Shown: positions 42,149-62,401 of the stretch, in pieces | Position numbering within the stretch: position 1 is the first letter of the stretch | Layout of the letters: each line of letters starts with the position of its first letter | Source: Phycicoccus avicenniae | GTDB lineage: Bacteria > Actinomycetota > Actinomycetes > Actinomycetales > Dermatophilaceae | Assembly: GCF_018139485.1 (NCBI RefSeq) | Contig: NZ_JAGSNF010000001.1 | Location: 124,001-188,000, forward strand | Direction: 5' to 3' | DNA length: 64,000 bases | The notes under the pieces: model-generated | Told to the model about the DNA's origin: nothing | What the model saw: only the letters and a program-made list of their open reading frames with translations | Database searches by the model: none | Program-made: the position numbers and the translations under genes

Positions 42149-42909
42149 GCGTGAGTCACCTCGAAGTGTGTACGGATTCGGGAGGTGAGTGCAGCGAACT
42201 CGGGATCGCCGAGCAGGTCGAGACTGCGTTCTCGGTCGAAGGGCACGGTGATCTCGTCCACAATGCGCCCTGGCCTCGCGCTCATGACGAAGATCCGTTC
42301 GGCGAGGAACACGGCTTCAGAGATCGAATGGGTGATGAGGACAGCGGTTGTTCCCGTCTCTCGCCAAATACGATTGACTTCGACATTGAGCGAGTCGCGC
42401 GTCATGGCGTCCAGCGCACCGAAGGGCTCGTCCATGAGCAACAAGGATGGCTTGTGCACTAGCGCCCTGCAGATGGCCGCGCGCTGCTGCATGCCACCGG
42501 ACAGCTCATGTGGTCGCTTGCGCGCGAAACCCTCGAGATCAGTCATGCGCAATAGAGCCGCCGCCTTCTCGCGATCCTGGGATGTGGGTCGCCGTCGCAA
42601 GCTCAGAGGTAGGAGGACGTTGGCTGCGATATCTTGCCAGGGAAGGAGGGTGGCCTTCTGGAAGACCATGCCGACGTCGCCATTTCCGGTGCGGATCGGG
42701 TGGCCACCGATGCTCGCGGTCCCCGCGGTGTGATCCTCCAACCCGGCGAGAATTTTTAGCAGGGTTGTCTTTCCGCAGCCGCTGGGACCGACGATGGCTA
42801 CGAATTCGCCCTTGCTGATGTCCAGGTCGACTGCGCTGAGGGCGTGCACGTCTCCAGTACGCGTGGCGTAGGTCTTCTCGAGACCGCTCAGTTCGACGAG
42901 CGCGCTCAC
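42145..42909 (-). CDS. ABC transporter ATP-binding protein (SsuB/TauB type)
   Basis: A 254-residue ATPase. The Walker A motif is GPSGCGKTTLLK, followed by a Q-loop (MVFQKATLLPW), the signature LSGGMQQRAAICRAL, the Walker B motif LLLMDEPFGALDA and an H-loop (VLITHSISEAVFLA). It belongs to the sulfonate/nitrate/taurine-type importers. The GTG start overlaps the amidohydrolase stop. Confidence 0.93.
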   Translation of the reverse strand: MSALVELSGLEKTYATRTGDVHALSAVDLDISKGEFVAIVGPSGCGKTTLLKILAGLEDHTAGTASIGGHPIRTGNGDVGMVFQKATLLPWQDIAANVLLPLSLRRRPTSQDREKAAALLRMTDLEGFARKRPHELSGGMQQRAAICRALVHKPSLLLMDEPFGALDAMTRDSLNVEVNRIWRETGTTAVLITHSISEAVFLAERIFVMSARPGRIVDEITVPFDRERSLDLLGDPEFAALTSRIRTHFEVTHA

Positions 42910-44234: not shown

Positions 44235-45331
44235 TCGACACTCCAACCTTCGGCATCGGCGATTACTACGTTGGCGTCGAAATCGTTGTACGTCTTCTCG
44301 TACTCATCGGTGACGTGCGGGGCGAGTGCAATCTTTTCGGTAACGATGCCGGCTTCGGCCGCGAACTTCTCCCAGGCCGCGACGGCGTCCGGCGCATATG
44401 CACCCCATGTGCCCGTGTCCTGTGGGTCGCCGGCAGTAAGTAGTTCGACGCGGCGCTGAAGCGCGACGATGTCGGTCTTGAGTTGTTCGTCCGCAGTCGA
44501 TCCCGCGAGGAGCGTATTCGGGTAAGACTCGTACATGATGCGCAGCGCGGCTTCCGGGTTCGTGGCGGTAAAAAGAGTGGCCTTGGCGACCGCGCGCCCG
44601 AAGCCCGCGACTGTGTCGGCGTGCTCCTCAAGGTAATCAGGTGAAGTGAAGTAGGTCGTTGAGAACAGCGAGGCGACGTCCTCAGTGGTGAAGTAGTTGA
44701 GCTCGACCCCGGATGCCTCGAACGCGGCGTATTCGGTGTCCCAGAGGGACAGCGCCTGAACCTGTCCAGTCTTCAGTGCCTGGAGGGCTGCTGCTCCCGT
44801 TCCGACAGCGAGGTTAGTGAAGTCGACGTCCTCCTTCAGCCCGACCGAAGCGAGAATCCCGTTGGAGAGGAGAAGGTTGCTTGTGCCAAGACTGGCCTGG
44901 CCGACGATCCCACCTTCCAGGTCTTCAAGCTCCTGTATCGGACCGTCTGCGAGCGATGCGACTGAACCGGTCTGCCTGCGGATGTAGTTGTAGACGAGAG
45001 TGACGTCGCTGCCTTGCTCGATTGCCTGCAGCAGCGGCTCAGGCGGCGTGCTGCCGAGTTCGAGGCTCCCGCTGTCGACGCCCTGGATGATTGAGGTCGC
45101 GTCGGTTGTGTGCACGAGCTCCACCTGCAGGCCCTCCGCTTCGAAGTAGCCCATTGCCTTTGCGACTGCCATGGGCGAGTTGTTCGCGCCCATCTGAGTC
45201 GGAATGCCGAAGCGGACGGTTGTGAGTTGCTGGCCGTCATCGCCGGGAGCAGATGCTGCGCAACCGCTCAATGCGATTCCGACGATTGCCGCGGCAGCCG
45301 CGAGGCCGGTGGCGCGGGTCGTAGTGATCAT
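44231..45331 (-). CDS. ABC transporter substrate-binding lipoprotein (NMT1/SsuA-like)
   Basis: A 366-residue protein. The lipoprotein signal peptide ends in the lipobox ALSGC near residue 22. The mature part has the NMT1/THI5-like fold (FGIPTQMGANNSPMAVAKAM near its start, SGSLELGSTPPEPLLQAIEQG in domain 1). Such proteins bind sulfonates, nitrate, thiamine precursors or pyrimidine precursors. It is first in the operon with amidohydrolase, ATPase, permease and aspartase. I chose the ATG at 45331, which gives a normal signal peptide. Confidence 0.9.
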   Translation of the reverse strand: MITTTRATGLAAAAAIVGIALSGCAASAPGDDGQQLTTVRFGIPTQMGANNSPMAVAKAMGYFEAEGLQVELVHTTDATSIIQGVDSGSLELGSTPPEPLLQAIEQGSDVTLVYNYIRRQTGSVASLADGPIQELEDLEGGIVGQASLGTSNLLLSNGILASVGLKEDVDFTNLAVGTGAAALQALKTGQVQALSLWDTEYAAFEASGVELNYFTTEDVASLFSTTYFTSPDYLEEHADTVAGFGRAVAKATLFTATNPEAALRIMYESYPNTLLAGSTADEQLKTDIVALQRRVELLTAGDPQDTGTWGAYAPDAVAAWEKFAAEAGIVTEKIALAPHVTDEYEKTYNDFDANVVIADAEGWSVE

Positions 45332-45455
45332 GGTTTGTCCTGTTCCGTTTGTGTTAGTGGTTTTTCGCGGATGCACGTTTCCGGGTCTCCCAAGAGGAGC
45401 CTTGGTGCAGGCGGTTGCACGCTACGGAGGGGAACTCCGCACGATGATGGGCTTC

Positions 45456-46087: not shown

Positions 46088-46275
46088 TAGACGACGAAAT
46101 GTAAACCCCCCATCGCGCTTCCACGGACCGAGCCAGTTGCCCTACCGGCTACGCACAGTCGCGAGCCTGATCCACACGACAACAAGCGCCCCATGCTGGG
46201 GGTGTCAGCTGCGCATGTCGGGAAACCACCCTGAGGGCTGCTCGGCGTATGGCAGCGGTTTGAACCGCCCCGGGT

Positions 46276-46596
46276 TCAGTGCACGATCAGTTGTCCCGGC
46301 AGCGGCTGCTGTCGGGGGTTGATCTGACGGTAGTGGTCGTCTTCGTACTCGGTCGGCGGGACGTAGCCGAGGGCGGAGTGCAGGCGGGCGGTGTTGTACC
46401 AGTGCACCCACGAGAGGGTGGCCAGCTCGAGCTCGTCGACGGTCTTGAAGGGTCCGTCGAGGCGGACGCACTCGGTCTTGTACAAGCCGATGACCGACTC
46501 GGCTAGGGCGTTGTCGTAGGCGTCGCCCACGGTTCCGATAGAGGCCAGCGCGCCGGCGTCGGCGAGGCGCTCGGTGTAGCGCAGCGCGACGTACTG
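46276..46596 (-). pseudogene. IS3 transposase orfB, C-terminal fragment
   Basis: It encodes YVALRYTERLADAGALAS, the DAYDNALAES block (third catalytic region) and WVHWYNTARLHSALGYVPP, to the natural stop. It is continuous with the fragment at 48107 once the IS30 and its 3-bp duplication are removed. Confidence 0.9.
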
Positions 46597-48833
<2,237 letters not shown>

Positions 48834-48835
48834 CT

Positions 48836-49696
48836 TCAGCCCTTGAGTCCAGAGGAGGCAATTCCGTCGATAACACGACGCTGCATGATGATGAAAAGAA
48901 TGAGAATCGGTGCTACCGCCATCGTGCTCGCCGCCATGAGCACCGCATAGTCGGTCGTGTACTGCCCCTGGAGCGACGCGAGACCAACTGTAAGAGGCAT
49001 TTTGGTGGTGTCCGTGGTGACGACCAATGGCCAGAGCAGATCGTTCCACGACCAGACGACCGTCAGCACCGCCAAAGCGGACAAGCCCGGTTTCACCAAC
49101 GGCAACATAACTTTGATGAAGATCTGCCAGGGGTTGCAGCCGTCAAGCCGTGCTGCCTCTTCTAGTTCGACCGGGATCCCACGGAAGAACTGGGTCATGA
49201 AGAATGCGCCGAAAGCACTGAAAATGCCGGGGAGCACAACTCCCGTCGTCGTGTTGAGGAGGCCAAGGTTCTGGATGATCTGATACTGCGGGATCATGAA
49301 CACCTCGGGTGGGACCATGAGGATCGACAAAGTGAGCCCGAAGATCACGCGCCGGAACGGGAAGCGCATCCGCGCAAACGCATATCCCGCGAGCGAGCAC
49401 AGGAGCAGCTGTCCCGCCGTCCGAAGGACTGTGATGCTCACTGACACCCAGAACTGGTCGAGGAAGGGAATCGACTCGAACACCCTTCCGAAGTTCGCCC
49501 ACTGGAGCTCGCCGGGCCAGAACGTCGGAGGGATCGACGTGACCTGGCTGTTGGTGCTGAGGGACATGACGAGCTGCCAGACAAAGGGGAAGACCATGAT
49601 CACGCCCCCTACCGCGAGGAAGAGGTGGACTCCTGCGTCCTTTGTCGCTCTGCTGCGAGGGACACGCGAAGTACGTGTGGTCGATCTACTTGACAT
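48836..49696 (-). CDS. Carbohydrate ABC transporter permease (MalG type)
   Basis: A 286-residue permease with six membrane helices. The EAA loop EEAARLDGCNPWQIFIKVMLP near residue 195 is typical of MalG-group sugar permeases. It is the last gene of the sugar-uptake operon and overlaps its MalF-type partner by 11 bases. Its 3' end abuts the IS3 remnant. No ATPase gene is in this operon, so a shared MsiK-type ATPase elsewhere is probably used. Confidence 0.92.
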   Translation of the reverse strand: MSSRSTTRTSRVPRSRATKDAGVHLFLAVGGVIMVFPFVWQLVMSLSTNSQVTSIPPTFWPGELQWANFGRVFESIPFLDQFWVSVSITVLRTAGQLLLCSLAGYAFARMRFPFRRVIFGLTLSILMVPPEVFMIPQYQIIQNLGLLNTTTGVVLPGIFSAFGAFFMTQFFRGIPVELEEAARLDGCNPWQIFIKVMLPLVKPGLSALAVLTVVWSWNDLLWPLVVTTDTTKMPLTVGLASLQGQYTTDYAVLMAASTMAVAPILILFIIMQRRVIDGIASSGLKG

Positions 49697-50603
49697 AATG
49701 CACCCACCTCTTTTCCCAGCGGAATTGCAGGCTGGTGAAGATGCCGATCAGGACCAGAATGAGCATCGCGATCGTCGCGCCGTACCCCTTATCATTCACG
49801 ACGAAAGACTCGTTGTAGAAGAGGAAGACCAGCGACTGTGTCTCCGGCATGACGGGGTTGGTGGGTTCCAGCAGGATGTACAGCAGGTCGAACAGCTTGA
49901 ACCCTGCGATGACGTTGATGACGAGTACGAAGAAGATGGACGGTGTCAGGAGTGGCACGGTGATGTGGCGAAACTGTGTCATGCGTCCCGCGCCGTCGAG
50001 CGCGGAGGCTTCGTACAGCTCTTTCGGGATCCCGCGAAGACCAGCGGCCAGAATGATGATGTTGAATCCCAACGCGATCCACAGTCCGACGATTGACACG
50101 GCAAAGAGCGCGTACCATTCGGTGCCGAGCCAGAACGGCCCGTCCACGCCGATCAGTGACAAGAACCAGTTGACCACTCCGTAGTCGCCCTTGAACATCT
50201 GCCTCCAGACGAGGGCGATCGCCACGGGCATGGCGATGTAGGACATCAGGAAGATGACCCGATAGCCGCCAGAGAAGCGCAGGCCCGGTCGAGAGATGAG
50301 CGCGGCCAGCACGACGCCGAGAGGTATGCCGAGGAGGACGATGCCGGTGTACACCACCGTGTTGACCAGAGCGCGAACGACGTCGGTGTCTTCGAGGAGT
50401 CTTCGGTAGTTGGTGAGTCCAGTGAAGCTAGCCCCTCCGAACACCTCCCAGCTCGTGAAGCTGTAGTAGGCGGTCGACGCCACGGGGTAGAGATAGAACA
50501 CGGCGATCCCACTGAACATCGGAAGAATGAACAGAAGGGGCCACCACCCTTCTGAGAGGGCGCCTTTCGACTTCCTGTTCCAGTTCACACCTACCCCTCT
50601 CAC
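49686..50603 (-). CDS. Carbohydrate ABC transporter permease (MalF type)
   Basis: A 305-residue permease with six membrane helices. The EAA loop YEASALDGAGRMTQFRHITVP near residue 205 matches MalF-group permeases, and the N-terminus WWPLLFILPMFSGIAVFYLYP is the usual first helix. It sits 3 bases downstream of the binding-protein gene and forms the transport channel with the MalG-type partner. Confidence 0.92.
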   Translation of the reverse strand: MRGVGVNWNRKSKGALSEGWWPLLFILPMFSGIAVFYLYPVASTAYYSFTSWEVFGGASFTGLTNYRRLLEDTDVVRALVNTVVYTGIVLLGIPLGVVLAALISRPGLRFSGGYRVIFLMSYIAMPVAIALVWRQMFKGDYGVVNWFLSLIGVDGPFWLGTEWYALFAVSIVGLWIALGFNIIILAAGLRGIPKELYEASALDGAGRMTQFRHITVPLLTPSIFFVLVINVIAGFKLFDLLYILLEPTNPVMPETQSLVFLFYNESFVVNDKGYGATIAMLILVLIGIFTSLQFRWEKRWVHYVK

Positions 50604-50606
50604 GAC

Positions 50607-51896
50607 TCAGTCGGCCTCGGCCGCGAGGAGGTCGTTCATTCTCGAAGCGAGCTCACCCGCGACGTCGGCGACAGGGCGATCACCCGAGAAGGCCGAGGGA
50701 AGCAGCTCGGTCTCGAGCAGGTTCCATGCCGTGGTGTCACCAGATGTGGGGTAGGGGGAGGCGTACTCGCTCGCATCCGTGAAGGCCTCGATGTTGTACT
50801 GCGGGGCAGAGTCGACGAACACCTGCTGCGACTCGAGGAAGGCAGGGTTTCCGAGTCCTTCACCGGCCAGGATCTCCTGGCCTTCCTGGGAACCCAGGAA
50901 CGCTTGAAAGGCGCGAGCGGCCGGCAGCTCTTCGCTGGCTCGACTCACGACCGCAGCGGTGCCGGCCACGACGACGCCGCGCTCCTCGCCCTGCGGCAGC
51001 GCTGCGATGTCGGCGACGTCGGCGACGGGCGAGTCCTGGACCTCCGCCACGGACCAGGCCCCATTGAACATCATGGCTGCCCTTCCGCTGTTGAACATCT
51101 GCGGAGCAGGCGTATCGGCCAGCTGGCGCACCGACGGGGAAGCCCCCTCGGCGATCAGGTCGGTCCAGAACTGCAGGCCCTCGATGCTGGCGGGGTCGTC
51201 GAAGCCGGACGTCTCCTTGTCATCGGAGAGGATGTACCCGCCGGCCTGCAGGATCGTGTTGTAGTAGGCCTGCTGTCCGGTCAGATCGGTGGCGATGCCG
51301 AAGACTCCCTCGTCCCCCAGCTCGTCGCTGATGGTGCGGGCAGCCGTCCGAAGGTCGTCCCACGTCCAGTCGCTGGTGGGGGTGTCCACTCCGGCTTCGG
51401 CGAAGAGCTGCTCGTTGTACCACATCGCGATGGTCTGCGAGTTCTGCGGAACACCGAGCAACGTGTCATCGAATGTGTAGGAGTCGATCAGCGCTTGCGG
51501 GTAGTTCGAGGGGTCGAGCTGTCCGTCTTCCACGAGGGGAGTGAGCGGGGCCAGGAGCCCGTTCTCGGCGTACGTCTCGAAGTTCAGCGAGTTCATCGTG
51601 AAGACGTCAGGCAAGGTCTGCGAGGAACCCTGCGTCTGGAGCTTGGTGAAGTACTGCTCGTACGGGGTCACCTGAATCTGCACGTCGATGTTGGGGTAAG
51701 TGCCGTTGAAGGCGTCGATGACTTTCTGCAGAGGTGGTTGCTGCTCGGCGTTCCAGATCGCGTAGTCGATCGAGGCCTGCGTGGTCTCATCGGCCAGGGG
51801 CTCCTCGGAGGCGGACTGCTCGTTACCGCCGCCGCCGCAGGCTGACAGGCCGAGCGCCGACAGGACGAGCACCAGGGGGATACGGCTGGTCTTCAT
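50607..51896 (-). CDS. Extracellular sugar-binding lipoprotein
   Basis: A 429-residue family 1 solute-binding protein. The signal peptide ends in the lipobox GLSAC near residue 20, then GGGG. The mature domain has the FNGTYPNIDVQ segment, GVPQNSQTIAMWYNEQLFAEAGVDTP and a C-terminal AFQAFLGSQEGQEIL helix typical of MalE-like proteins. It captures an unknown oligosaccharide for the two permeases. The ATG overlaps the stop of the Gfo/Idh gene. Confidence 0.92.
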   Translation of the reverse strand: MKTSRIPLVLVLSALGLSACGGGGNEQSASEEPLADETTQASIDYAIWNAEQQPPLQKVIDAFNGTYPNIDVQIQVTPYEQYFTKLQTQGSSQTLPDVFTMNSLNFETYAENGLLAPLTPLVEDGQLDPSNYPQALIDSYTFDDTLLGVPQNSQTIAMWYNEQLFAEAGVDTPTSDWTWDDLRTAARTISDELGDEGVFGIATDLTGQQAYYNTILQAGGYILSDDKETSGFDDPASIEGLQFWTDLIAEGASPSVRQLADTPAPQMFNSGRAAMMFNGAWSVAEVQDSPVADVADIAALPQGEERGVVVAGTAAVVSRASEELPAARAFQAFLGSQEGQEILAGEGLGNPAFLESQQVFVDSAPQYNIEAFTDASEYASPYPTSGDTTAWNLLETELLPSAFSGDRPVADVAGELASRMNDLLAAEAD

Positions 51897-53188
51897 TCGA
51901 AGCACTCCTTTGTGCGGGGTTGATCAGTGAGTTCTCGTGAGCTGAATGGGTGTTGGACCATTTGGGAAGGGTCTCGATCGGTGGCGTCCCGGAAGTACGC
52001 GGAGAGCTCCGGAGAAACCGTCGCAACCGGCTGGGGTGTGGCGCCGTGGCGCAAGGAAAGGGTCGCGGCTACGGCTGCGGCGACTGCGTTCCTGGCCGAG
52101 ACTGGCGACGCCTGCGTGGACGTTCCGCAGCTCAAGGACGACATGAAGTCGGCGACTGCGCGAGCGTCGGCCTCCGCGTGGCCCTCCGACGCGCCCGGGA
52201 TCGGGTACTGCGCGTTTCCGTCGGCGAGGTAGGTCGTTCTCGCGGTCCAGACCTTCACGACGCCCCCGACCGTGTCACCGAAGTTCTCCAGGCGGCCCTT
52301 GGTGCCGATGACGGTGTAGTTCCGCCAGTAGTCGGGGGTGAAGTGGCACTGCTGGTAGGACGCGAGCACGCCGTTGTCCAGCGTCATGAGCATCATCGAG
52401 AGATCCTCGACATCGATCACCGGGTTGAGCTCACGCTGTGACTGAGGGGGCCAGGTACTCAGGGAGAACCAGTCCGCAAGCCGCCGGTCGGCATTGATCC
52501 GCCGGTCCTTCACGTCTCCGTACACGGCCAGGTCTCCGATGGCGGTGACGCGTGAGGTCGTACCACCTGCGAGCAGATGGATGACGTCGATGTCGTGCGC
52601 ACCCTTCTGGAGCAGGAGGCCCGTCGACAGAGAGCGCTCGGCGTGCCAGTCCTTGAAGTAGTAGTCACCACCGTTGCCGACGAAGTGGCGACACCACACG
52701 GCCTTGACGTCACCGATGTCACCCCGACGGATGATGCTGTGCATCAGCTCCACGACCGGCATGTAGCGCATGTTGTGACCCACGAACAACGAGGTGCCGG
52801 TGGCGGCTGCCGTCTCGAGCACAGCATCCGCGTCTTCGACCGTGGTGGCGATCGGTTTCTCCAGGTACACGGCGACGCCGGCCTCGAGGAGGTCCCTGGC
52901 GATCTCTGCGTGAGTGTGGTCGGGCGTGGTGACGAAAGCCGCGTGGACAGGCATCCCACTCTCGAGGAGGGCACGGTGGCTGGCGAACGTGGCCACCCCG
53001 GACCCGAAGGTCTCAACGGAGCGCCGCCGCGCAGCGAGGTCGGGGTCGACTGCCGCCACGATGGTCGCCGTGCCCCCTTCGACGGCGTGCAGCGCGATGG
53101 ACGAGCGTTCGCCGACACCCAGCACGGCGACGCGCAGTCCCGCCGGCGCGCTGGGATCGGCGAGCCGGGGGCGCGGCCCGGACGTCAT
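51893..53188 (-). CDS. Gfo/Idh/MocA family oxidoreductase
   Basis: A 431-residue NAD(P)-dependent sugar dehydrogenase. The Rossmann start is VAVLGVGERSSIALHAVEGG. TTPDHTHAEIARDLLEAG and VYLEKPIAT (the EKP motif with the catalytic Lys) follow, then HNMRYMP and DIDVIHLL in the substrate domain. It probably oxidises or epimerises a sugar derived from the imported glycan. It overlaps the ROK repressor gene upstream and the binding protein gene downstream by 4 bases each. Confidence 0.92.
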   Translation of the reverse strand: MTSGPRPRLADPSAPAGLRVAVLGVGERSSIALHAVEGGTATIVAAVDPDLAARRRSVETFGSGVATFASHRALLESGMPVHAAFVTTPDHTHAEIARDLLEAGVAVYLEKPIATTVEDADAVLETAAATGTSLFVGHNMRYMPVVELMHSIIRRGDIGDVKAVWCRHFVGNGGDYYFKDWHAERSLSTGLLLQKGAHDIDVIHLLAGGTTSRVTAIGDLAVYGDVKDRRINADRRLADWFSLSTWPPQSQRELNPVIDVEDLSMMLMTLDNGVLASYQQCHFTPDYWRNYTVIGTKGRLENFGDTVGGVVKVWTARTTYLADGNAQYPIPGASEGHAEADARAVADFMSSLSCGTSTQASPVSARNAVAAAVAATLSLRHGATPQPVATVSPELSAYFRDATDRDPSQMVQHPFSSRELTDQPRTKECFE

Positions 53189-54375
53189 GAACGTCCTCCC
53201 TGCTGGGCCGACGAGCGTGCGCCGGCGACGTCGATGCTGACGGCCGGCAGACCGCGAACGCCCAGTCGCACGTCCGTGGCCTCATTGCCGGCCAGTGCAA
53301 GAGCGCCGAGGACGACCGCCTCGGTGCCGAGCTCGGACCCCCTGATGGCAGGACGAACAGGGACGCGGATCTGAGCGTTGATCGAGTCCCGTAGGGGTTC
53401 GAGCAAGACGTCGCCTGCGCCGGACAACCCCCCGCCGATGACCACGATGTCCGGATCGATCGCCATCGTCACCAGGGCCATCCCGGCAGCCAGCCCCTCG
53501 ACGAACTCCGCGACCTCGGCCTGGGACCCGGCATCTCCAGCTGCAGCCTGACGGAAGACCTCCTCACCCGTGGCAGCCGCTCGCCAGGTCAGGTCGCCCG
53601 ACGCGTTCAGCATCGTGCCGAACGCCATCTCTCCGATCTCGCCGGCGGCGCTGTTGTGACCGCGTCTGAGCTCACCGTCGATGAGCAGGCCCATCGCGAT
53701 GCGGTGTCCGGCAAAGAAGAAGACGACGTCGTCCATGAGTCGGGCGGCCCCGAAGCGATGCTCGGCCAACGCGGCCAGGCGCATGTCGTTCTCGACGATG
53801 ACGGCACAGTTGAACTCCGCGCGCAGGTGCCCTGCGACATCGACCCCTTCCCATTCGGAAAGAAGGACCGAGGCGATGAGCCGTCCCTCGGCATTCACCA
53901 TTCCCGACACGGCTGCCGCGAGGGCGACGACATCGGACACTGAGACGTCGGCCGAGTGCAGAGCCTGATGAACGAGGTCCTTGACCATCGACAGACGAGC
54001 CGGACCGCTCATCCCGGTCGGCGCTTGCTCGTCCACCCAGGAAACCACGCCGCCGGCCAGGTCGGCCACGGCCACGCGGATGCGGTGGATGCCGATGTCG
54101 ACGCCGATGAAGTAGCCGGCGGCGTTGTTGAAGGCGAAGAGTCTTGCGGGTCGTCCGACCCCGCGCCCCCCCGCGGTGTGACCGTCTGTCTCGACCACCA
54201 TGGCGCGCGCGACCATCGCGGACAGCCCGGCCTCGACCGTCGGGCGTGACAGCCCGAGCCGGCGAGCGACGTCGGCGACGGTCGCGTGACCGTGATCTCG
54301 CAAGGCGACTGCGCATCGAGCGGCGCTGACGTCCCGAATGGCGAGCGAGGTCTCCCCGACACTTCGATGACTCAT
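53185..54375 (-). CDS. ROK family transcriptional repressor
   Basis: A 396-residue protein. Residues ~15-75 are a winged helix (ATVADVARRLGLSRPTVEAGL). Residues ~85-370 are a ROK sugar-kinase-like domain with FIGVDIGIHRIRVAVAD (phosphate loop), NDMRLAALAEHRFG and IVVIGGGLSGAGDVLL. The ROK zinc motif CxCGxxGCxE, expected after HNSAAGEIGEMAFG, is absent, so it is a zinc-less regulator. It heads the minus-strand operon with Gfo/Idh and the importer, and probably represses it via the CTTnTTArTAGAG site upstream. Confidence 0.9.
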   Translation of the reverse strand: MSHRSVGETSLAIRDVSAARCAVALRDHGHATVADVARRLGLSRPTVEAGLSAMVARAMVVETDGHTAGGRGVGRPARLFAFNNAAGYFIGVDIGIHRIRVAVADLAGGVVSWVDEQAPTGMSGPARLSMVKDLVHQALHSADVSVSDVVALAAAVSGMVNAEGRLIASVLLSEWEGVDVAGHLRAEFNCAVIVENDMRLAALAEHRFGAARLMDDVVFFFAGHRIAMGLLIDGELRRGHNSAAGEIGEMAFGTMLNASGDLTWRAAATGEEVFRQAAAGDAGSQAEVAEFVEGLAAGMALVTMAIDPDIVVIGGGLSGAGDVLLEPLRDSINAQIRVPVRPAIRGSELGTEAVVLGALALAGNEATDVRLGVRGLPAVSIDVAGARSSAQQGGRS

Positions 54376-54436
54376 GACACCTCCGATCTGTCCTGTCCGA
54401 CCATCATCCAGACACTTGGGCTATAACGCAAGATAC

Positions 54437-54449
54437 CTTCTTAATAGAG
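54437..54449. promoter_or_regulatory. Putative ROK operator 1 (CTTCTTAATAGAG)
   Basis: This AT-rich 13-mer lies 62 bases upstream of the ROK gene, in the 91-base gap before the SGNH gene stop. It matches CTTATTAGTAGAG upstream of the FAD oxidoreductase at 11 of 13 positions in the same plus-strand orientation. AT-rich TTA-TA cores are usual for ROK repressors. Confidence 0.6.
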
Positions 54450-54466
54450 GGACGTTTTCCCTGCCC

Positions 54467-55483
54467 TCAGCACGACGCGCGGTCCAGAACCGCGATAAGA
54501 CGACGAGCCATGAGTGCGTAACCCTCGGCCGTTGGGTGCAAGCCGTCCAGGAGGAGATGAGCATCGTCATGGCCGAGAACATCCCGTCCGTCAACGTAGG
54601 TGACGCGGGCGTCGGGCATCGCGGTGACGACGTCGCAGATGGTGTCGCGTACCTCGACCAGGGTGAGGCCCGACTGGTTCCGTACCGACTCGCGGCTGGG
54701 GGAGATGACGGGCGAGACGACGTGGATCCTCGACGTGTGCGAGCTCCCGCGCGCGACGTCCAGGAACCGGCGCAGACGTGCGGCCAACGTGGCCGCCGAC
54801 CACGTGCCGGCGTTGTAGACGTTGATTCCCGCGCAGATGGTGACGATGTGCGGCTCGAGCCGGCGAATGGTCAGCGCAACCACCTCGTCGAGGAAGCACT
54901 CTCCGCTGAAGCCCAGAGACACGAGGTCCCAACCGGCCTGCGCGGCGAGCAGCGATGGCCAGGTCTCCGATGGGCCGTCCGCCTCGCAGCACTGGGTGAT
55001 CGAGCTGCCGTAGGCGACCCACCGCCGACCCCGAGCGGGCGAGGAGGTGAGGACCTTTGCGCCGGTGAGGACGAGGCGGCCGACCCGGGTGATCCCCACT
55101 TGGGGTAGCCAGAGCTGGACGTCGGCAAGGACACCGGGCAACCTGCACTCGACAACCCCGGGTCCTCGCCCGAGCCTCACCCGACGCGCGAGATGTCCGT
55201 CGACGACCACGTCGACGTAGCCCGAAGCGTCGCCGACCCGATCCACGAGCAGGCGGAGAGACCTGGCGTCCGTGCAGAACTCCGCGCGCACGCCCGCTCC
55301 CTCTTGGGCAGCGTGTGACAAGCCAGGTCGAACGCCGTGCCTCACTCCTCTGTCCAGCCGCCAAGGCGTCCTGCTGTCGTCCGACCACCCGACAGCGCCC
55401 CGCCAGACGCTGTCCTCACCGCCGGGCGCGAGGATGGACGACGCGCCATGACTGTCGAAGATCGGGCCGCTTTCACGAACCAT
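54467..55483 (-). CDS. SGNH/GDSL-type esterase with N-terminal beta domain
   Basis: A 338-residue hydrolase. The N-terminal ~130 residues are a beta-rich carbohydrate-esterase-like module. The catalytic domain begins WVAYGSSITQC (Ser in block I), then GFSGECF (block II Gly), ICAGINVY (block III Asn) and DGLHPTAEGYALMA (block V Asp-x-x-His). It probably removes acyl groups from a sugar substrate. No signal peptide is visible. The ATG lies inside the 3' end of the FAD oxidoreductase gene, so the two are coupled. Confidence 0.88.
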   Translation of the reverse strand: MVRESGPIFDSHGASSILAPGGEDSVWRGAVGWSDDSRTPWRLDRGVRHGVRPGLSHAAQEGAGVRAEFCTDARSLRLLVDRVGDASGYVDVVVDGHLARRVRLGRGPGVVECRLPGVLADVQLWLPQVGITRVGRLVLTGAKVLTSSPARGRRWVAYGSSITQCCEADGPSETWPSLLAAQAGWDLVSLGFSGECFLDEVVALTIRRLEPHIVTICAGINVYNAGTWSAATLAARLRRFLDVARGSSHTSRIHVVSPVISPSRESVRNQSGLTLVEVRDTICDVVTAMPDARVTYVDGRDVLGHDDAHLLLDGLHPTAEGYALMARRLIAVLDRASC

Positions 55484-57728
55484 GCGCGCCCGGGACCCCG
55501 GAGGGAGTGTCGAACACCCGGACGGCGACGATCCGGGCCTGCCGACAACCGTTCGTCTCGTGGACCCTGACCCTCAAGCGGTCGGTCAGAACAGGGGAGT
55601 CCAGGGTGATCGAGCACCGGCGGACGCGGTTGTCCTCGACAGCGGCCACCTGTTGCCAGCCGGCAGTCCCGAGAACGTCGAGGGTCGCCCGTCGAACCAG
55701 GGTGGGCATGATCTCGTCAGGGGTTCGATGATGATGCAGGTTGATGAGGTCCTCGTTCAGGTCGTCGTCGAAGATCAGGTCGATCTCGCGGAACCTGACG
55801 TGCTCGTCCCAGGCCAGCGTCACGGTCGGTTCGGGATCCCGGGCCATGTCATCGGAGGCCCACATGTTCGGCCCACCGTAGGGGCGTGCGAAACCACCGA
55901 GGACCTGCCGGGGCGAGAACGCTTCCGTCGTGCCCAGTTTGAAGCAGAGCCCTTCCCGCAGAAGCACCTGCTTCCAGTGCCTCCAGAGCGTGGGATCGGG
56001 TTCTGCCGGAGGCACCGGTCGGAACGACAGCGTGACCGAGCCGGGCGGCGAGCTGGCTCCCGCGTGAAGCCGGAGGTGCCTGTTCGCGCGGATCACGACG
56101 AAGGCATTGCACGGACTCGCGGGATGCCACACCACGGGAACGTGCGTCCAGGATCGCCCTCGACCGACGCGCACCGTCGCTGACCCGACCTGCTCGGACG
56201 GGAGGTAGTTCTGCGGCTTGCTCGTCGTGTGCACCTCGACCACCAGTGACGTGTCCTCATCGGCGTCGAGGAGCAGATCCAGTCCGTCGAGGGCCGGATC
56301 GACCGGCACCACCAGGCCGTAGTCATCGTCCAGAGGGATGAGTCGGGTGGAGACGTCGTGGGCGATCTCGACAAGGCTCGAGGAAGCGCTCGCCGACGCT
56401 GACAGGGCGAGATCTCGGGCGTCGGTGTTCTCGACGCCGAGCAGTGAGGCGTCGGCACGCACCATGGCGTGGTGTAGCTCCTTGACGTGGTGTTCGGAGA
56501 GGTTCCGGGGGGTCACGTCCAAGCGGAGCGCCGTGGCCGCAGCGATGCCGGCGGCCTCTCCCAGGGTGGCGCACGTGGCCATGACCCGAGTGCTTCCGAA
56601 CGCGACGTGGCTCGCGCTGATCGTTCGCCCCGCCAGCCACAGGTTCTCGACATTGACGGAGAAGAGCGAGCGCAGCGGGATGTGGTAGTTGCCGTCGGGG
56701 TGCAGGTGGCGGGACCCCGGTTCCGAGGCGTAGACGCCGCCCGGTGGGTGGAGGTCGATGGACCAGCCGCCGAAAGCGACGCGGTCGGCGAACTCGGTCT
56801 GGTCCATGATGTCCGACTGAACCAGTACGTGATCGCCGAAGAATCGCCTGTACTCCCGCTTTCCCGGAACCGAACCAACCCACTCGAGCGACAGGTTCTC
56901 GGCAGGGAACTCTCCAGAGTTCTTGATGTAGTCCCACAGGCCGTAGACCACCGCGTGCAGCTCGTCACGGATGGTCTCGTTGTCGTGCAGGACGTCGAGT
57001 TCTCCACCCCACTCGATCCACCAGAAGTCGCAGCCGTTCATCTCGTGACTGATCTCGCGACGACGGGGGATGGCCGTGCTGCGGATATCCACGGCGAACG
57101 GGGGAGGGACGAACTTCGAAGGCCTGCCCACGTCCTTCGTGTGGAACAGGATGGTGCTACCCAAGGTGTTCGAGTCCGGAACCTCCGGCGCTGACGGCTC
57201 TCGATACATCGAGCGTGACTCACGACCCGAAGCGAAGGACGCCCCGGCCAGGTATCCCACAAGGCCGTCACCGCTGCACTCGACGAAGGAAGACGCGGTG
57301 ATGCTCACCCTGCGCTCCGAGCCCGACACCCACCCCGCGATGGACCGGATCACCCGGCGATCGGGGCCGCCGTGCGCGTCTACGTCGGTGATCTCGGTAT
57401 TGAGCAGAAGAGTGATGTTGTCTTCGGCGCGGACTTTCTCCAGCAGGAGCAGGTCCCAGTAGTAGGGGTTGCCTTCCGGATTCCGGTACTGGTTCTCGAC
57501 GAACAGCTCACCCATGATCCCCGTCTCGCGAGCGAAGGGGTGAACGCCGTGTGCCGTCGCGCCGCAGACCCAGACGCGTACCTCGCTGGACGAGTTGCCA
57601 CCGAGGACCGGCCGGTTCTGGACGAGGACGACGCGGGCGCCTTGGCGGGCTGCGCCGATCGCGGCGCTGACGCCGGCAAGGCCACCACCCACCACCGCAA
57701 TGTCGGCTTCGAGGGTCTCCTCGCGCAT
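55473..57728 (-). CDS. FAD-dependent oxidoreductase (FAD_oxidored type) with C-terminal beta domain
   Basis: A 751-residue protein. The N-terminal FAD motif reads IAVVGGGLAGVSAAIGAARQG, followed by LVQNRPVLGGNSSSE. The flavin domain closes near residue 430 with NLWLAGRTISASHVAFGSTR. From ~440 to the end is a beta-rich region ending in a sugar-binding-like sandwich (Trp-rich, RVRVHETNG). It likely oxidises a sugar hydroxyl before further processing. No secretion signal is seen. It is first in the operon with the SGNH hydrolase and has its own promoter with the second ROK-like site. Confidence 0.88.
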   Translation of the reverse strand: MREETLEADIAVVGGGLAGVSAAIGAARQGARVVLVQNRPVLGGNSSSEVRVWVCGATAHGVHPFARETGIMGELFVENQYRNPEGNPYYWDLLLLEKVRAEDNITLLLNTEITDVDAHGGPDRRVIRSIAGWVSGSERRVSITASSFVECSGDGLVGYLAGASFASGRESRSMYREPSAPEVPDSNTLGSTILFHTKDVGRPSKFVPPPFAVDIRSTAIPRRREISHEMNGCDFWWIEWGGELDVLHDNETIRDELHAVVYGLWDYIKNSGEFPAENLSLEWVGSVPGKREYRRFFGDHVLVQSDIMDQTEFADRVAFGGWSIDLHPPGGVYASEPGSRHLHPDGNYHIPLRSLFSVNVENLWLAGRTISASHVAFGSTRVMATCATLGEAAGIAAATALRLDVTPRNLSEHHVKELHHAMVRADASLLGVENTDARDLALSASASASSSLVEIAHDVSTRLIPLDDDYGLVVPVDPALDGLDLLLDADEDTSLVVEVHTTSKPQNYLPSEQVGSATVRVGRGRSWTHVPVVWHPASPCNAFVVIRANRHLRLHAGASSPPGSVTLSFRPVPPAEPDPTLWRHWKQVLLREGLCFKLGTTEAFSPRQVLGGFARPYGGPNMWASDDMARDPEPTVTLAWDEHVRFREIDLIFDDDLNEDLINLHHHRTPDEIMPTLVRRATLDVLGTAGWQQVAAVEDNRVRRCSITLDSPVLTDRLRVRVHETNGCRQARIVAVRVFDTPSGVPGAHGS

Positions 57729-57782
57729 AGCTGCCTCCATCTGAGCAAGGACGAACTGTCCGGACTTTACAACGAAATCCGT

Positions 57783-57795
57783 CTTATTAGTAGAG
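57783..57795. promoter_or_regulatory. Putative ROK operator 2 (CTTATTAGTAGAG)
   Basis: It lies 55 bases upstream of the FAD oxidoreductase start and matches operator 1 (54437) at 11 of 13 positions. It links the oxidoreductase/SGNH operon to the ROK regulator. The rest of the 57729-57872 gap holds only this promoter region. Confidence 0.6.
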
Positions 57796-57924
57796 CAGAT
57801 CCCGTCCGCCTGCGGTCATGGGCCATGCGAGCGCGAGAAAGAGTCGGCCGCGCGGGTGATGGGGGCGATACCGTGAACCGCCCCGGGTCTCGTGCAGGGT
57901 CTGATTTCCCGAGAGGATCAGGTC

Positions 57925-58251
57925 ATGCCAGCACCGAGGAAGTACCCGCAGGAGCTGCGGGAGCGGGCGATGCGTCTGGTGCAGGAGGCGCGTCAGGAAG
58001 ATCCGGAGCTGTCGGTGACGGCTGCGGTGCACCGGATCGGCACGCGGGTCGGGGTCAACCCGGACACGTTGCGCGGGCGGGTCAAGCAGGCCGACATCGA
58101 CGCCGGGAAGCGGCCAGGGACCACCACGGATGACGCCCAGCGGATCAAGGCGCTCGAGGCCAAGAACCGTGAGCTTAAGCGGGCCAACGAGTTCCTGTTG
58201 GCGGCCTCCTCGTTCTTCGCGCGGGAGCTCGACCCGCGACTTCCGTGGTGA
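57925..58251 (+). CDS. IS3 transposase orfA
   Basis: A 108-residue protein. The helix-turn-helix is VTAAVHRIGTRVGVNPDTLRG, and a leucine-zipper-like helix KALEAKNRELKRANEFLLA follows, the usual IS3 orfA layout. OrfB begins in the -1 frame with a 7-base overlap, as expected for programmed -1 frameshifting to make the OrfAB fusion. Confidence 0.92.
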   Translation: MPAPRKYPQELRERAMRLVQEARQEDPELSVTAAVHRIGTRVGVNPDTLRGRVKQADIDAGKRPGTTTDDAQRIKALEAKNRELKRANEFLLAASSFFARELDPRLPW

Positions 58252-58850
58252 ACGCGTTCATCGACGCGCACCGGGCCCGGTTCGGGGCCGAGCCGATCTG
58301 TCGCGTGCTGAGCGAGCACGGCGTCCAGGTCGCCCCGCGGACCTACTACACCGCCAAGACCCGCCCGCTGTCGGCGCGGGCGGTCCGGGATGCGGAGCTG
58401 GTCGAGACGATCCGGGCGGTGCACACCGACCGGTCCAAGGGGCGCGGAGTGGCCGGGTACCGGAAGGTGTGGCGCCTGCTGAAGAGGGACGGGGTGGAGG
58501 TCGCTCGCTGCACGGTGGGGCGGCTGATGCGCCAGGAAGGGCTGCACTACACCGAGCGCCTCGCCGACGCCGGCGCGCTGGCCTCCATCGGAACCGTGGG
58601 CGACCTATACGACAACGCCCTCGCCGAGTCGGTCATCGGGCTGTACAAGACCGAGTGCGTCCGCCTCGACGGACCGTTCAAGACCGTCGACGGGCTCGAG
58701 CTGGCCACCCTCTCGTGGGTGCACTGGTACAACACCGCCCGCCTGCACTCCGCCCTCGGCTACGTCCCACCAGCAGAGTTCGAGGGTGACTACTACCGTC
58801 AGATCAACCCCCGACAGGCGCCGCTACCGGGACAACTGACCGTGCACTGA
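58245..58850 (+). pseudogene. IS3 transposase orfB with internal deletion
   Basis: A 201-residue product instead of about 290-300. The N-terminal part is normal (FIDAHRARFGAEPICRVL to VGRLMRQEGL), then it jumps directly to HYTERLADAGALAS. The first two catalytic Asp blocks (DFTYV and HHSDAGSQ, still present in the 46-48 kb copy) are missing. The deletion is in frame, near 58,548. The protein cannot catalyse transposition, but could bind DNA or the intact transposase. Confidence 0.9.
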
Positions 58851-58979
58851 GCCCGGGGCGGTTCAGTACCGGGCCGTGGCGTTGAGCTATCGATCTTGGT
58901 GGTCGCCAGGACCGCATTCACCGCGGCTTCGACTCGTCAACGGCGAGCAGGTCGACCTCGTGGCCGGAGAGCAGCTCGA

Positions 58980-60713
58980 TTAGACGTCACTACCTGCTTC
59001 TTCGACGTCGGTCGGATCGTGGCGACGCCACCGGATCGTCCGGTCAGGGGTCGTGAGCGCGTGCGTCACCTGGCCCCCTTCCAATCGCCGGTCAAGGACC
59101 TTGGGGGAGTCGAGAACGGCTTCGCACTGACCGAGGTCGATCGACTGTCCGCCCACCTTGGCAGTCAGGGGCAGGAGGATGCGCGCCGGCTGGCTTTCGT
59201 CGAACGTGACATCGCTACCGAGGACGACCATGAGGGCGTGTCCTTCGGGGTGCGTCCCCGTGATCTCGTCGCCGTCCAAGACCGCAGCGACGCGCTGCCA
59301 TCCCGCCATGTCCTTTTGCGTCACCCCCTCAAGGTCGGGGGTCCGGATCGGCGTGCTCGTGTGCTCCTGGAGTCGCGTCAGCGGCTCCAGCATCTGGAGG
59401 ATGGCCTCAAGCCACTCGAAGATGTCGTGGTCCGGGTCAAAGACGCCGTCCGAGTCGACCACCCCCCGTGAGGGTGGGGTGTTTCTGACGCTGACCCGGA
59501 TCTTGTTGGGGCGGTGCAACAGGCTGAGAAAGTGCAGGGACGCATAGACGGTCGCGACCGGCTTACCGGACCAGTCGCCAAACCGTAAGGTCCGGTTGAG
59601 GCGACGATCCGGCAAGTCGACCCTGTCCTCGGTGGTGAACACGCCGTGAATCTCCTCAAGGACGACGCGGATTCCACCGCGAAGACCCTCTGTGCGCTCG
59701 ACCCTGCGGACGTCGACCCCAGCGAGTGACACTCCCGCCGGGTCGAGGACCTCGACGTGGAGATCCGGGTTCTGGCCCAAGTCGTGGTCCTCGGTCGGGC
59801 CAACCCAGAGGGTGCCGCCCTCCAGAGCACCACCGATCCCACCCGGTGCGGCTAGCTCCCCGGTGAACGCGCCCTCAGGGCTCGTGAACGGTGCGCCGTA
59901 GGTGAACCACGCGTCCAGCTGGCCAGCGAACTCACTGCCCGGCTCGGCCGTGAAGGCTCCCTGAATGGTGATGGGCCGCTCCTGAACCGACGCAGCACAC
60001 CTAGCGATGATATCGACGGTGCTCCAGCGACCTCCGTCGGGCTCGATGAGCTGGGTGTGCATCACCATCCCTGGGCGTTCGCCTTGCCGCGGGTACGGCG
60101 GCGGGTCGCCCTCGCCGAAGCGGTGTTCGTAGCGGTAGTGCGGGTCGTGGTCCAACACCTGGAGAGCGTCGTGCAAGCGACGCTGGACCTCCTGAACCGA
60201 CAGACCCTCGGGCAACTTCTCGGCGCCCACCAGAGTCATGACCTGAGCGTGGGTGGTCTCGATTAGAGCGCGTCCGCCGTGAAGGTAGTAGTCGATGACG
60301 TCGTCGTACTTCGCTGCCTGCTGGTCGGCCCACGTCAGGCCGTGCCAGATCTTGCGGATGTCGGGGTATCCCAATCCCTGGAGCCAGTCTTCTGCTTCCG
60401 GCGTGGGGTCCCACGGGGTGACCAGCCGCCACTCGCGCACGGACAGGCTCTTCCACCGGTCGTCGGACATCAGCCTGTTCAACGAGCCCTTGATATCGCG
60501 CTCCTGCTTCGCGGTCAGCTTCTCCGTGTAGCGCTTCACCTGGTAGACCACGTCCGTTCCGTCCGGACCGGCGCCGCGGTCGAGGATGTCGACACCGCCG
60601 TCACCCTTGGAAGGGGTGATCCTCACCGACTCTGGCCGTTCGCGGTTGACGAACATTGCCACAACCGCCTCGACCTGACCGCCCTCAAGCCGCGTCCACT
60701 CCACCGATCCCAT
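58980..60713 (-). CDS. Mrr-like PD-(D/E)XK nuclease-domain protein of unknown function
   Basis: A 577-residue protein. The first ~130 residues look like a restriction-endonuclease fold: GGQVEAVVAMF (leading helix), ITPSKGDGGVDIL (catalytic Asp) and VVYQVKRYTEKL (the QxK motif), then a helix KQERDIKGSLNRL. The remaining ~440 residues are uncharacterised, Asp/Gly-rich and beta-predicted, without known motifs. Such proteins are found singly in actinobacterial genomes; an anti-phage or anti-plasmid role is an inference from the nuclease fold and the neighbouring IS elements and Fic gene. The ATG is at 60713 with no clear ribosome site. Confidence 0.75.
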   Translation of the reverse strand: MGSVEWTRLEGGQVEAVVAMFVNRERPESVRITPSKGDGGVDILDRGAGPDGTDVVYQVKRYTEKLTAKQERDIKGSLNRLMSDDRWKSLSVREWRLVTPWDPTPEAEDWLQGLGYPDIRKIWHGLTWADQQAAKYDDVIDYYLHGGRALIETTHAQVMTLVGAEKLPEGLSVQEVQRRLHDALQVLDHDPHYRYEHRFGEGDPPPYPRQGERPGMVMHTQLIEPDGGRWSTVDIIARCAASVQERPITIQGAFTAEPGSEFAGQLDAWFTYGAPFTSPEGAFTGELAAPGGIGGALEGGTLWVGPTEDHDLGQNPDLHVEVLDPAGVSLAGVDVRRVERTEGLRGGIRVVLEEIHGVFTTEDRVDLPDRRLNRTLRFGDWSGKPVATVYASLHFLSLLHRPNKIRVSVRNTPPSRGVVDSDGVFDPDHDIFEWLEAILQMLEPLTRLQEHTSTPIRTPDLEGVTQKDMAGWQRVAAVLDGDEITGTHPEGHALMVVLGSDVTFDESQPARILLPLTAKVGGQSIDLGQCEAVLDSPKVLDRRLEGGQVTHALTTPDRTIRWRRHDPTDVEEAGSDV

Positions 60714-61198
60714 GCACTTAGTATCGGCCGTTCGCGTCCTCGACCAACCAGATCAAAAGATCCACGAGGCGGGTAGGCGACGCTCCGTTCGAGTCTCCGA
60801 CCGAAATCGGAAGCTCGGCGGTTCGACCGACCCTGACTGCTACCGAGGCCGAACGCAGAGCCCCAGTGACCTGCAACTTCTTCACGTCTTGGCTTCTTCT
60901 ATCAGCACCACGACTCACCCTTGTTCACCGAAGTGTGCCGCTGCTAGCCAAGAGATGTCGCACAGTTCTTGCACGGCGTACCGGCTACGTGGGAGAGGCA
61001 AGGCGGGGGTCGTCGTGACCGGCTTCGCCGTCGCTCAGGAGGGAGAGTGGCCTCGGGAAGTTGTTAGGGGGTCCCGTGCGGTGGCCCTGACTTGTAACGT
61101 CACCTGGCGACAGGCAGAAAATTCCAAGCGTGTTCTTTAGGAGACTGCTGCCCTGGGGGGCCTAGATGTTAGGTCTGGTGCCAGTAGACTTAACAACT
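60714..61198. other. Divergent intergenic region with a possible small ORF
   Basis: This 485-base spacer lies between the minus-strand nuclease gene and the plus-strand Fic gene. On the minus strand, 60918-60718 could encode 66 residues ending SPTRLVDLLIWLVEDANGRY, stopping 4 bases before the nuclease ATG. It might be a leader peptide or an upstream exon-like remnant; support is weak. A TAGACT box at 61185-61190, 8 bases before the Fic ATG, suggests leaderless transcription. No RNA gene or repeat was seen. Confidence 0.35.
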
Positions 61199-62401
61199 AT
61201 GGATACGGCAGCCCTTGAGAACAGTCCCGTCGGCCAGCTCGTCCCCATCAGTGGGCATGACGAGCGGCAGCGTCCGTTCTCTCACGTCGCCTTCCTCCCC
61301 AAGCCACTCCCCACCACTCTCGAGTTGTCGAGCGCAACATGGACGGGGGTCGCGGCAGCGACCGAAGCCCTCGGGCGGCTCCACCAAGCATGCGCGAGCA
61401 TCCCAAATCCACGCTTGCTGATCGCGCCGGCATTGGCGAAGGAGGCGGTCGACACCTCTGCCCTGGAAGGAACCTACGGAGCTCTTGCCGATGTGCTCGA
61501 GTCTCGGCTGACAGACGTTCGCCCGAAGTCGGCCGAGGTCGCCGAGATCCGCGCCTACGAGCAGATCGCCCAACTTGGCTTCGAATGGGTCCGCCATCAG
61601 CCCATCACGATCGGGCTGCTCGAACACCTGCAGGGAATCTTGGCGAAGGATTCGCGCCAAGCTCAACGGGACCCGGGCAAGGTTCGAGAGCATCAAGTGG
61701 TGATCGGTCCTGAGGGCTGCACAGTGTATGAGGCGCGCTACATTCCCCCGCCCCCAGACGATCGCCTACGTGCGGGGCTTGACCAGTGGCAGGAGTGGCT
61801 CGCGGCTGACGTGCCGTTGCCCGCCCCGGTCAAGGCCGCGATGGCGCACTACCAGTTCGAGTCTCTCCACCCCTTTGGGGATGGAAACGGCCGAATCGGA
61901 CGCCTCGTCATCGTCCTCCAACTAATGCGCTCGGGCATACTCAACGAGCCCGCTTTGACGATCTCGCCTTGGCTGCGAGCTCGGCGGGACGAGTACCAGG
62001 GCCACCTTCTGGCCGTGAGCCAGACCGGCAACTGGGACCCTTGGGTTGCCTTCTTCTGCCGTGCGATCTGCGAGCAGTCCATGGCTTCCGTGCGAGTTGT
62101 CGATGCCCTCAACACCTGGCTCACGACTCAGCGGCAGACACTGAACGACCGCTACTGGACCGGGACTATCGCCAAGCTCGTCGAAGATCTGGTTGATTGG
62201 CCTGTCATCACGGCCTCCTTCGTGCAGGAGAAGTACGAAGTAAGCGCTCCGACAGCGAAATCCGCGATCGACCGCCTCATGGAGAGCGGCGTACTCCGAG
62301 AAACCACGGGCAAGTCCTACGGCCGCGTCTACGCCGCCATGGACGTCATCAACGCAGTGGAGTCGTTCGGTACATCGGGCGAGTCACGTCCGTCTGCGTG
62401 A
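61199..62401 (+). CDS. Fic family protein (predicted AMPylase) with inhibitory helix
   Basis: A 400-residue protein. The N-terminal domain holds TSALEG (the [ST]xxxE[GN] auto-inhibitory motif) near residue 95. The Fic core HPFGDGNGRIGRL lies near residue 220, with the catalytic His and phosphate-binding residues. The C-terminal ~120 residues include a winged-helix-like region (ITASFVQEKYEVSAPTAKSAID). Members transfer AMP from ATP to target hydroxyls. I chose the ATG at 61199, with a TAGACT -10 box right before it (leaderless); ATG at 61166 would add 11 residues. Confidence 0.9.
   Translation: MDTAALENSPVGQLVPISGHDERQRPFSHVAFLPKPLPTTLELSSATWTGVAAATEALGRLHQACASIPNPRLLIAPALAKEAVDTSALEGTYGALADVLESRLTDVRPKSAEVAEIRAYEQIAQLGFEWVRHQPITIGLLEHLQGILAKDSRQAQRDPGKVREHQVVIGPEGCTVYEARYIPPPPDDRLRAGLDQWQEWLAADVPLPAPVKAAMAHYQFESLHPFGDGNGRIGRLVIVLQLMRSGILNEPALTISPWLRARRDEYQGHLLAVSQTGNWDPWVAFFCRAICEQSMASVRVVDALNTWLTTQRQTLNDRYWTGTIAKLVEDLVDWPVITASFVQEKYEVSAPTAKSAIDRLMESGVLRETTGKSYGRVYAAMDVINAVESFGTSGESRPSA

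Follow-up and report, generated by a model that had tools for sequence, protein, structure and literature searches.

Gene content and surroundings of the cassette

The window, that is, the whole stretch of 64,000 nucleotides from Phycicoccus avicenniae that was analysed, carries at positions 48836-57795 seven genes that appear to form a horizontally acquired set serving the import and chemical processing of a sugar compound, perhaps of the galactose or galactosamine type (Table 1). The seven genes that an earlier note on this DNA had assigned to the span were all recovered as open reading frames, each on the minus strand, and are transcribed in the order flavoprotein, SGNH hydrolase, ROK protein, Gfo/Idh enzyme, solute-binding protein (SBP) and two permeases. 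Packing is tight, with overlaps between the flavoprotein and SGNH genes, serially between those for ROK protein, Gfo/Idh enzyme and SBP, and between the two permease genes; gaps of 3 bp and 91 bp separate SBP from permease A and SGNH from ROK, respectively. A gene for an importer ATPase is not among the seven, and sharing of the ATPase is common in sugar importers of such type. The flavoprotein, previously given as 751 residues long, comprises 755 when read from the first ATG, and the shorter length results from a start at the fifth codon, in line with where many relatives begin. That a glycoside hydrolase is missing was borne out, as none of the seven proteins matches a Pfam glycoside hydrolase family (E up to 0.001). 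The cassette is a new combination of known parts.

Table 1. Genes, putative sites and insertion sequence remnants at the cassette (positions in the window)
Feature	Position	Strand	Remarks
Inverted remnant of the IS3-type element, left flank	46261..46585	-	93% alike to the right-flank element over 325 bp
Sugar ABC importer permease B	48836..49696	-	Pfam scan
Sugar ABC importer permease A	49686..50603	-	Pfam scan
Sugar ABC importer SBP	50607..51905	-	Pfam scan
Gfo/Idh/MocA enzyme	51893..53188	-	Pfam scan and alignment of relatives
ROK-family protein, presumed transcriptional regulator	53185..54375	-	PF00480
25-bp imperfect inverted repeat	54422-54446	-	TATTAAGAAGGTATCTTGCGTTATA; overlaps 13-bp site upstream of ROK
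13-bp site upstream of ROK	54437..54449	-	CTTCTTAATAGAG (plus-strand reading); overlaps 25-bp repeat
SGNH/GDSL hydrolase	54467..55483	-	PF13472; ORF overlaps flavoprotein ORF by 11 bp
FAD_oxidored (PF12831) flavoprotein with CBM32/discoidin-like C-terminal domain	55473..57740	-	755 aa (751 from fifth codon)
25-bp imperfect inverted repeat	57768-57792	-	TACTAATAAGACGGATTTCGTTGTA; overlaps 13-bp site upstream of flavoprotein
13-bp site upstream of flavoprotein	57783..57795	-	CTTATTAGTAGAG (plus-strand reading); overlaps 25-bp repeat
IS3-type element, right flank	57874..58865	+	orfB only 201 aa, middle part apparently missing (by eye)

Remnants of insertion sequences border the cassette on both sides, and on the left an IS30-type transposase within ORF 46503-48428 adjoins the IS3-type remnant. 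A composite IS3 transposon was considered and rejected, as the left copy is a remnant, orfB of the right copy is short and the outer flanking bases differ, no target duplication being seen. The right copy found no match when compared with plasmids by megablast. GC content is 64% from the ROK to the permease genes and 67% for flavoprotein plus SGNH, compared with 71% for positions 1-46000; the right flank, at 66%, has the same value as the cassette, which we count against acquisition. Among 186 genomes of the host's family, the flavoprotein is found in one, the host's own (E up to 1e-60), and the ROK protein is likewise restricted to the own genome. Compared with plasmids, the ROK protein yielded distant matches only, the best listed having 39% identity. 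Further IS3-like coding pieces were seen by eye in the region 46261-48480, around 48060-48360 and close to 48420. Beyond the IS remnants on the left side, at 42906-45376 on the minus strand, an Amidohydrolase_2 protein is encoded beside an ORF that by eye resembles a solute-binding lipoprotein. Right of the cassette reside genes for an Mrr-type restriction-endonuclease-like protein (58980-60713, minus strand) and a Fic/DOC protein (61166-62401, plus strand).

The Gfo/Idh enzyme and the SGNH hydrolase

The solved structures nearest to the Gfo/Idh enzyme, 8QC2 and 8QC3, are NAD-dependent sulfoquinovosidases (SqgA) of family GH188, with a match that spans residues 18-219 only. A single-sequence model of the enzyme (mean pLDDT 38) was set aside. 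The available text of PMC10755693 names Lys107, Tyr136, the sulfonate-binding Arg166, Glu189 and His193 as key residues of ArSqgA, and by hand mapping their equivalents in the cassette enzyme are Lys, Met, Gly, Gln and His. Within an alignment of the cassette protein and 35 distinct others, kept of 52 matching, all 36 sequences retain K111 and H198, which correspond to Lys107 and His193, and Q194, K195 and H337 are equally invariant; Gln occupies the Glu189 position in all 36, and Met, Phe or Leu is found at that of Tyr136. Identity with the GH188 sulfoquinovosidases was rejected, given that the binding residues equivalent to Tyr136, Glu189 and Arg166 of the enzyme as described in that text differ. 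A BT_2158-type glycoside 3-dehydrogenase (NF058561) was likewise dismissed at 55.4 bits against a cut-off of 750.

It is possible, if rather unlikely, that the Gfo/Idh protein is nonetheless a true NAD-dependent glycosidase with a GH109- or GH188-like mechanism, the flavoprotein then acting later on the freed sugar or aglycone. Apart from the structural matches and the retained Lys and His, the conserved loop His is consistent with this idea: GH109 enzymes carry their catalytic His within a GGHGG loop and use a Tyr as acid/base, and a loop His, H337, is invariant in our alignment of the cassette protein and its relatives. Some relatives moreover reside in galactosamine-type clusters. The replacement of Tyr136, Glu189 and Arg166 argues against it, as do the limited extent of the structural match and the occurrence of Lys and His residues of this kind in ordinary Gfo/Idh dehydrogenases. 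Our best guess for the enzyme is an NAD-dependent oxidation, probably at C3. If oxidative cleavage takes place at all, it would be better assigned to the Gfo/Idh enzyme than to the flavoprotein, as the nearest solved structures of the former are NAD-dependent glycosidases.

Of 396 genomes sampled from the order, 91 contain a relative of the Gfo/Idh enzyme (E up to 1e-60, own genome included), as do 4 of 396 sampled from the phylum; a scan of viral contigs gave 17 pattern matches and no relative. Twenty loci were inspected, five of which (L123-L127, all from one genus) had been preselected for an SBP gene beside that for Gfo/Idh, the other 15 being taken from the 91 genomes, mostly by score. 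A Gfo/Idh-SBP-PermA-PermB order occurs in seven of the 20, namely the preselected five plus L131 and L132 (2 of 15 without the five), and L133 has a ROK-SBP-PermA-PermB-Gfo/Idh arrangement, bringing the importer context to 8 of 20. AgaS-like genes were found in nine loci (4 of 15 without the preselected five) and are absent from the remaining eleven; aldolase-like genes occur in the same nine. NagA-like genes are present in eight (seven of the nine AgaS loci and L134) and PfkB-like genes in six of the 20. In L123, the neighbours comprise genes for DeoR/AgaR-like, SIS, ROK kinase, NagA-like, PfkB, class II aldolase and GH2 proteins, names that are given by similarity because the NagA-like protein, at 203 bits, stays under its cut-off of 226. 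These arrangements resemble clusters for N-acetylgalactosamine/galactosamine (aga type) in related actinobacteria, in which Gfo/Idh-SBP-PermA-PermB lies beside DeoR/AgaR-like, AgaS-like, NagA-like and aldolase-like genes, an arrangement counted in 7 of the 20 loci, including the five preselected ones. The cassette differs in containing no aga enzyme, and the aga-type cluster of the host, with relatives of DeoR, AgaS, ROK kinase, PfkB and aldolase together, is situated on another contig (C11).

The SGNH hydrolase matches PF13472 with 69 bits (cut-off 32.9) and, weakly and under the Pfam cut-off, an SsfX3 N-terminal domain. GSS, GIN and DGLHP can be read in its sequence as blocks I, III and V, which are marks of the SGNH family. 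Of 297 genomes, 22 including the own contain a relative (E up to 1e-25), and the 21 others all belong to the 91 Gfo/Idh-containing genomes, a co-occurrence that is weak because 16 of the 21 are from one family. In L142 the SGNH and Gfo/Idh relatives are about 1 kb apart, and in L192 the distance is about 4.5 kb, with a sulfatase and a GH35 gene in addition. An aminotransferase-like neighbour, one member of which was identified by Pfam, is common to five of ten SGNH loci inspected. At L191:10628-13276, a gene for a PL8-type polysaccharide lyase adjoins that of an SGNH relative, and genes for ROK and sugar ABC proteins follow on the other side. Outside the window, the own genome encodes another SGNH relative (C8:80870-81469, locus L183), which is more distant (E 7.6e-27).

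Paired upstream sites and the ROK protein

The earlier note had pointed at near-identical 13-bp sites upstream of the two operons. Both are located as described, on the same strand, and agree at 11 of 13 positions, but the likeness is only modestly above chance: a same-strand pair of 13-mers agreeing at 11 or more positions arose in 20 of 300 shuffled pairs of the two intergenic regions with dinucleotides kept. A chance expectation of 0.14 calculated for the 13-mer pattern is circular because the pattern was built from the same two sites. The likeness extends over a 28-bp local alignment with 19 of 28 positions identical, and 61 of 2000 shuffles under one scoring scheme, or 45 of 2000 under another, did as well or better. 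The sites start 74 bp (ROK) and 55 bp (flavoprotein) from the first start codon, a difference of 19 bp that shrinks to 7 bp with the fifth codon taken as the flavoprotein start. A same-strand match with start-codon distances within 20 bp of each other was obtained in 6 of 600 shuffles, the tolerance of 20 bp being our own choice, which the observed difference barely passes.

Each site overlaps a 25-bp form, TAYTAAKAAG-N5-TTNCGTTRTA, that may be read as an imperfect inverted repeat. In the 3.54-Mb genome this form, which like the 13-mer was read off the two sites themselves, occurs with up to three mismatches at these two places only (control 0). For the 13-bp motif, with which a regulon prediction had been proposed earlier as a check, there are over the whole genome two exact sites, none with one mismatch and five with two, compared with ten in all for the reversed control. 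No enrichment was seen in related loci, and a reading of the site as a conserved operator was rejected on these grounds. Over 87 flavoprotein loci, the 25-bp form (up to four mismatches) gave nine matches versus 14 in the reversed control and the 13-mer (up to one mismatch) one versus two; over 21 Gfo/Idh loci, both forms gave none, as did the control. A sigma-70 scan of positions 53000-58000 revealed no promoter-like site. The site pair is a plausible candidate for a local operator.

The ROK protein itself matches PF00480 with 120 bits (cut-off 22.9). ROK transcriptional regulators carry a winged-helix domain at the N-terminus, and residues 18-62 of the cassette protein score 24.2 bits with MarR_2 and 19.3 bits with HTH_IclR, both under the Pfam cut-off. 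Mlc/NagC-type ROK regulators feature a CxCG zinc motif. The CxC motif is absent from the cassette protein and also from seven of ten relatives listed (six genomes), being present in the other three, and we take its absence, as judged from these sequences, as variation within the ROK family.

It is unlikely, yet conceivable, that the cassette does not represent one pathway and that two unrelated pieces, flavoprotein-SGNH and ROK-Gfo/Idh-importer, were joined by IS activity, with a coincidental likeness of the sites. The pieces do recur separately elsewhere, IS remnants are present on both sides, and the 20 of 300 shuffles as well as the related loci without the site fit a coincidence. The distance-restricted match in the 6 of 600 shuffles fits it less well, and so do the confinement of the 25-bp form to these two places in the genome and the common orientation of the pieces at their spacing of 91 bp.

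The flavoprotein and the proposed pathway

The flavoprotein matches PF12831 over residues 13-424 with 310.7 bits (cut-off 27), and the residues invariant among its close relatives are kept (38 full-length aligned sequences, the cassette protein being the first). Its structure model (mean pLDDT 82, with stretches such as 49-70 and 233-243 under 50) joins an FAD-Rossmann part to a C-terminal CBM32/discoidin-like part. A C-terminal beta domain had been predicted from the sequence, and its fold indeed matches CBM32 modules with Z values of 16-17 (4zz5, Z 17.4, rmsd 1.7 over 127 residues; 2xqx, Z 16.7, rmsd 2.4 over 139), such that carbohydrate binding by the modelled domain is plausible. Best Foldseek matches of the flavoprotein are fumarate reductase and GidA; no carbohydrate oxidase is among the 50 VIA matches listed, an absence that we count as no evidence.

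Relatives of the flavoprotein range over Actinomycetota, Bacillota and plasmids of Rhizobium and a haloarchaeon. The best 80 of 90 confirmed relatives were analysed for their neighbourhood; the scan needs exact short conserved words and hence retrieves close relatives. Neighbours were counted with reference proteins (tblastn, E up to 1e-10, 40% of query length), and hydrolase counts are lower bounds as only families with a reference protein were counted. Some loci are truncated at contig ends, gene calls in all related loci stem from a simple ORF picker, and only part of the neighbours was scanned. Importer genes are frequent, with permease B represented in 63 and permease A in 59 of the 80 loci. 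Regulators are IclR (35), RpiR (14), LacI (13), AraC (11) and ROK (4), and other neighbours comprise BNR_4 (20), MFS (13) and AXE1 (7) proteins and a 457-residue protein without Pfam or NCBIfam match (11). SGNH and Gfo/Idh genes are each present in two of the 80, with weaker Gfo/Idh matches in further loci, and GH35, GH42 and GH43 occur once each. The BNR_4 protein of L038 matches the solved structures 5muk, 4irt, 5mum and 5mvh, which we take to be linked to rhamnosidase family GH145. Seven plasmid loci were fetched, three of them (L143, L184, L186) without annotation. On two Streptomyces plasmids (L145, L146) the gene for the flavoprotein relative adjoins GH35 and GH42 genes, on a further plasmid (L144) it shares a locus with rhaA, rhaB, BNR_4 and GH95 genes, and on a Rhizobium plasmid it lies beside relatives of RpiR and the permeases.

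The earlier note had taken the parts, among which a glycoside hydrolase is missing, to point to oxidative instead of hydrolytic cleavage of an acylated glycoside. With the flavoprotein as the cleaving enzyme this step is not supported, since the missing hydrolase is not a trait of the family: some relatives share loci with GH35, GH42, GH43, GH95 or BNR_4 genes (20 of 80 for the latter), and the flavoprotein is thus not a hydrolase substitute in its family. Oxidative cleavage of an acylated glycoside by the flavoprotein, standing in for a glycoside hydrolase, with SGNH deacylating and Gfo/Idh oxidising or reducing the product, is quite improbable in view of these neighbours, of the general FAD enzymes returned by structure searches and of the better suited Gfo/Idh enzyme, notwithstanding the lack of a hydrolase family among the seven proteins, the CBM32/discoidin-like domain, which makes carbohydrate binding plausible, and a flavoprotein-SGNH order on one strand that recurs in L045 and L050.

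We tentatively favor, at somewhat less than even confidence, a horizontally acquired cassette for carbohydrate catabolism that includes a dedicated ROK repressor. A small glycoside or oligosaccharide, perhaps of the galactose/galactosamine type, would enter through the SBP and the two permeases, powered by an ATPase whose gene lies elsewhere. Within the cell, the SGNH enzyme may strip off an acyl group, whereupon the Gfo/Idh enzyme would use NAD to oxidise the sugar, C3 being the most likely position, and would do so either in the manner of a dehydrogenase or as a glycosidase that oxidises, eliminates, hydrates and reduces. The flavoprotein may carry out a further redox step on the sugar-derived compound, and the ROK protein, presumably bound at the ~25-bp site upstream of each operon, would repress both until the inducing sugar is present. 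Of the ROK-regulated sugar module originally suggested, the ROK-type regulator, the sugar ABC importer and the two oxidoreductases in one cassette stand, together with a plausible shared operator; the cleavage role of the flavoprotein is not supported. AgaS-type neighbours of the Gfo/Idh relatives and the C11 cluster of the host speak for a galactosamine context, and GH35/GH42 genes near flavoprotein relatives along with GH2 (L123-L127) and GH35 (L192) near Gfo/Idh relatives for a galactoside context. Against the favored reading we count that the cassette itself contains no aga gene, that loci were preselected, that the site likeness is weak and that five of the ten SGNH loci have an aminotransferase-like neighbour. 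Flavoprotein relatives seldom have Gfo/Idh or SGNH relatives nearby, so that the combination in the cassette is unusual and its parts may serve different substrates.

That no characterised system has these parts, as had been stated, is too strong for the importer and Gfo/Idh portion. In the available text of PMC10066097, loci for levoglucosan utilization pair ABC importers with Gfo/Idh enzymes and have ROK regulators among the neighbours, features that the cassette has in common with these LGDH loci; the term 'fad' does not occur in the main text as available, indicating that no flavoprotein is described there. The cassette deviates in that none of its seven proteins belongs to PF01261 (LgdB1 type) and in the addition of flavoprotein and SGNH hydrolase. 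A levoglucosan pathway was rejected, the Gfo/Idh enzyme reaching 62.3 bits against the LGDH NCBIfam cut-off of 650 and a PF01261 gene being absent. Among the papers listed by searches of the open-licence PMC library, none describes the flavoprotein reaction in its title or the opening of its abstract.

PF12831 loci of Kribbella, Brachybacterium, Streptomyces and Paenibacillus encode the same two-part flavoprotein, and the majority of the 80 loci include sugar ABC permease genes; unlike in the cassette, regulators there are mostly of the IclR, RpiR, LacI or AraC type, and frequent partners are BNR_4 proteins, the 457-residue protein or MFS carriers. It is a speculative and quite unlikely possibility that the flavoprotein represents a new class of intracellular sugar oxidoreductase that would oxidise a galactose-type residue of imported oligosaccharides and so ready them for cleavage, with partners (BNR_4, glycoside hydrolases, here an NAD-dependent Gfo/Idh enzyme) varying by bacterium. 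Should the flavoprotein prove to oxidise sugars in place, a step in how soil bacteria degrade glycans is being overlooked, and the compact cassette offers a small gene set for probing sugar oxidation by the flavoprotein. A distant flavoprotein relative (40% identity) is encoded near sulfatase-like, beta-galactosidase and GH97 genes on a plasmid of the haloarchaeon Halomontanus rarus (L185). The 457-residue protein (L007:7701-9074), which by eye is beta-propeller-like, has its gene next to that of the flavoprotein, or a short way off, in the closest flavoprotein relatives.
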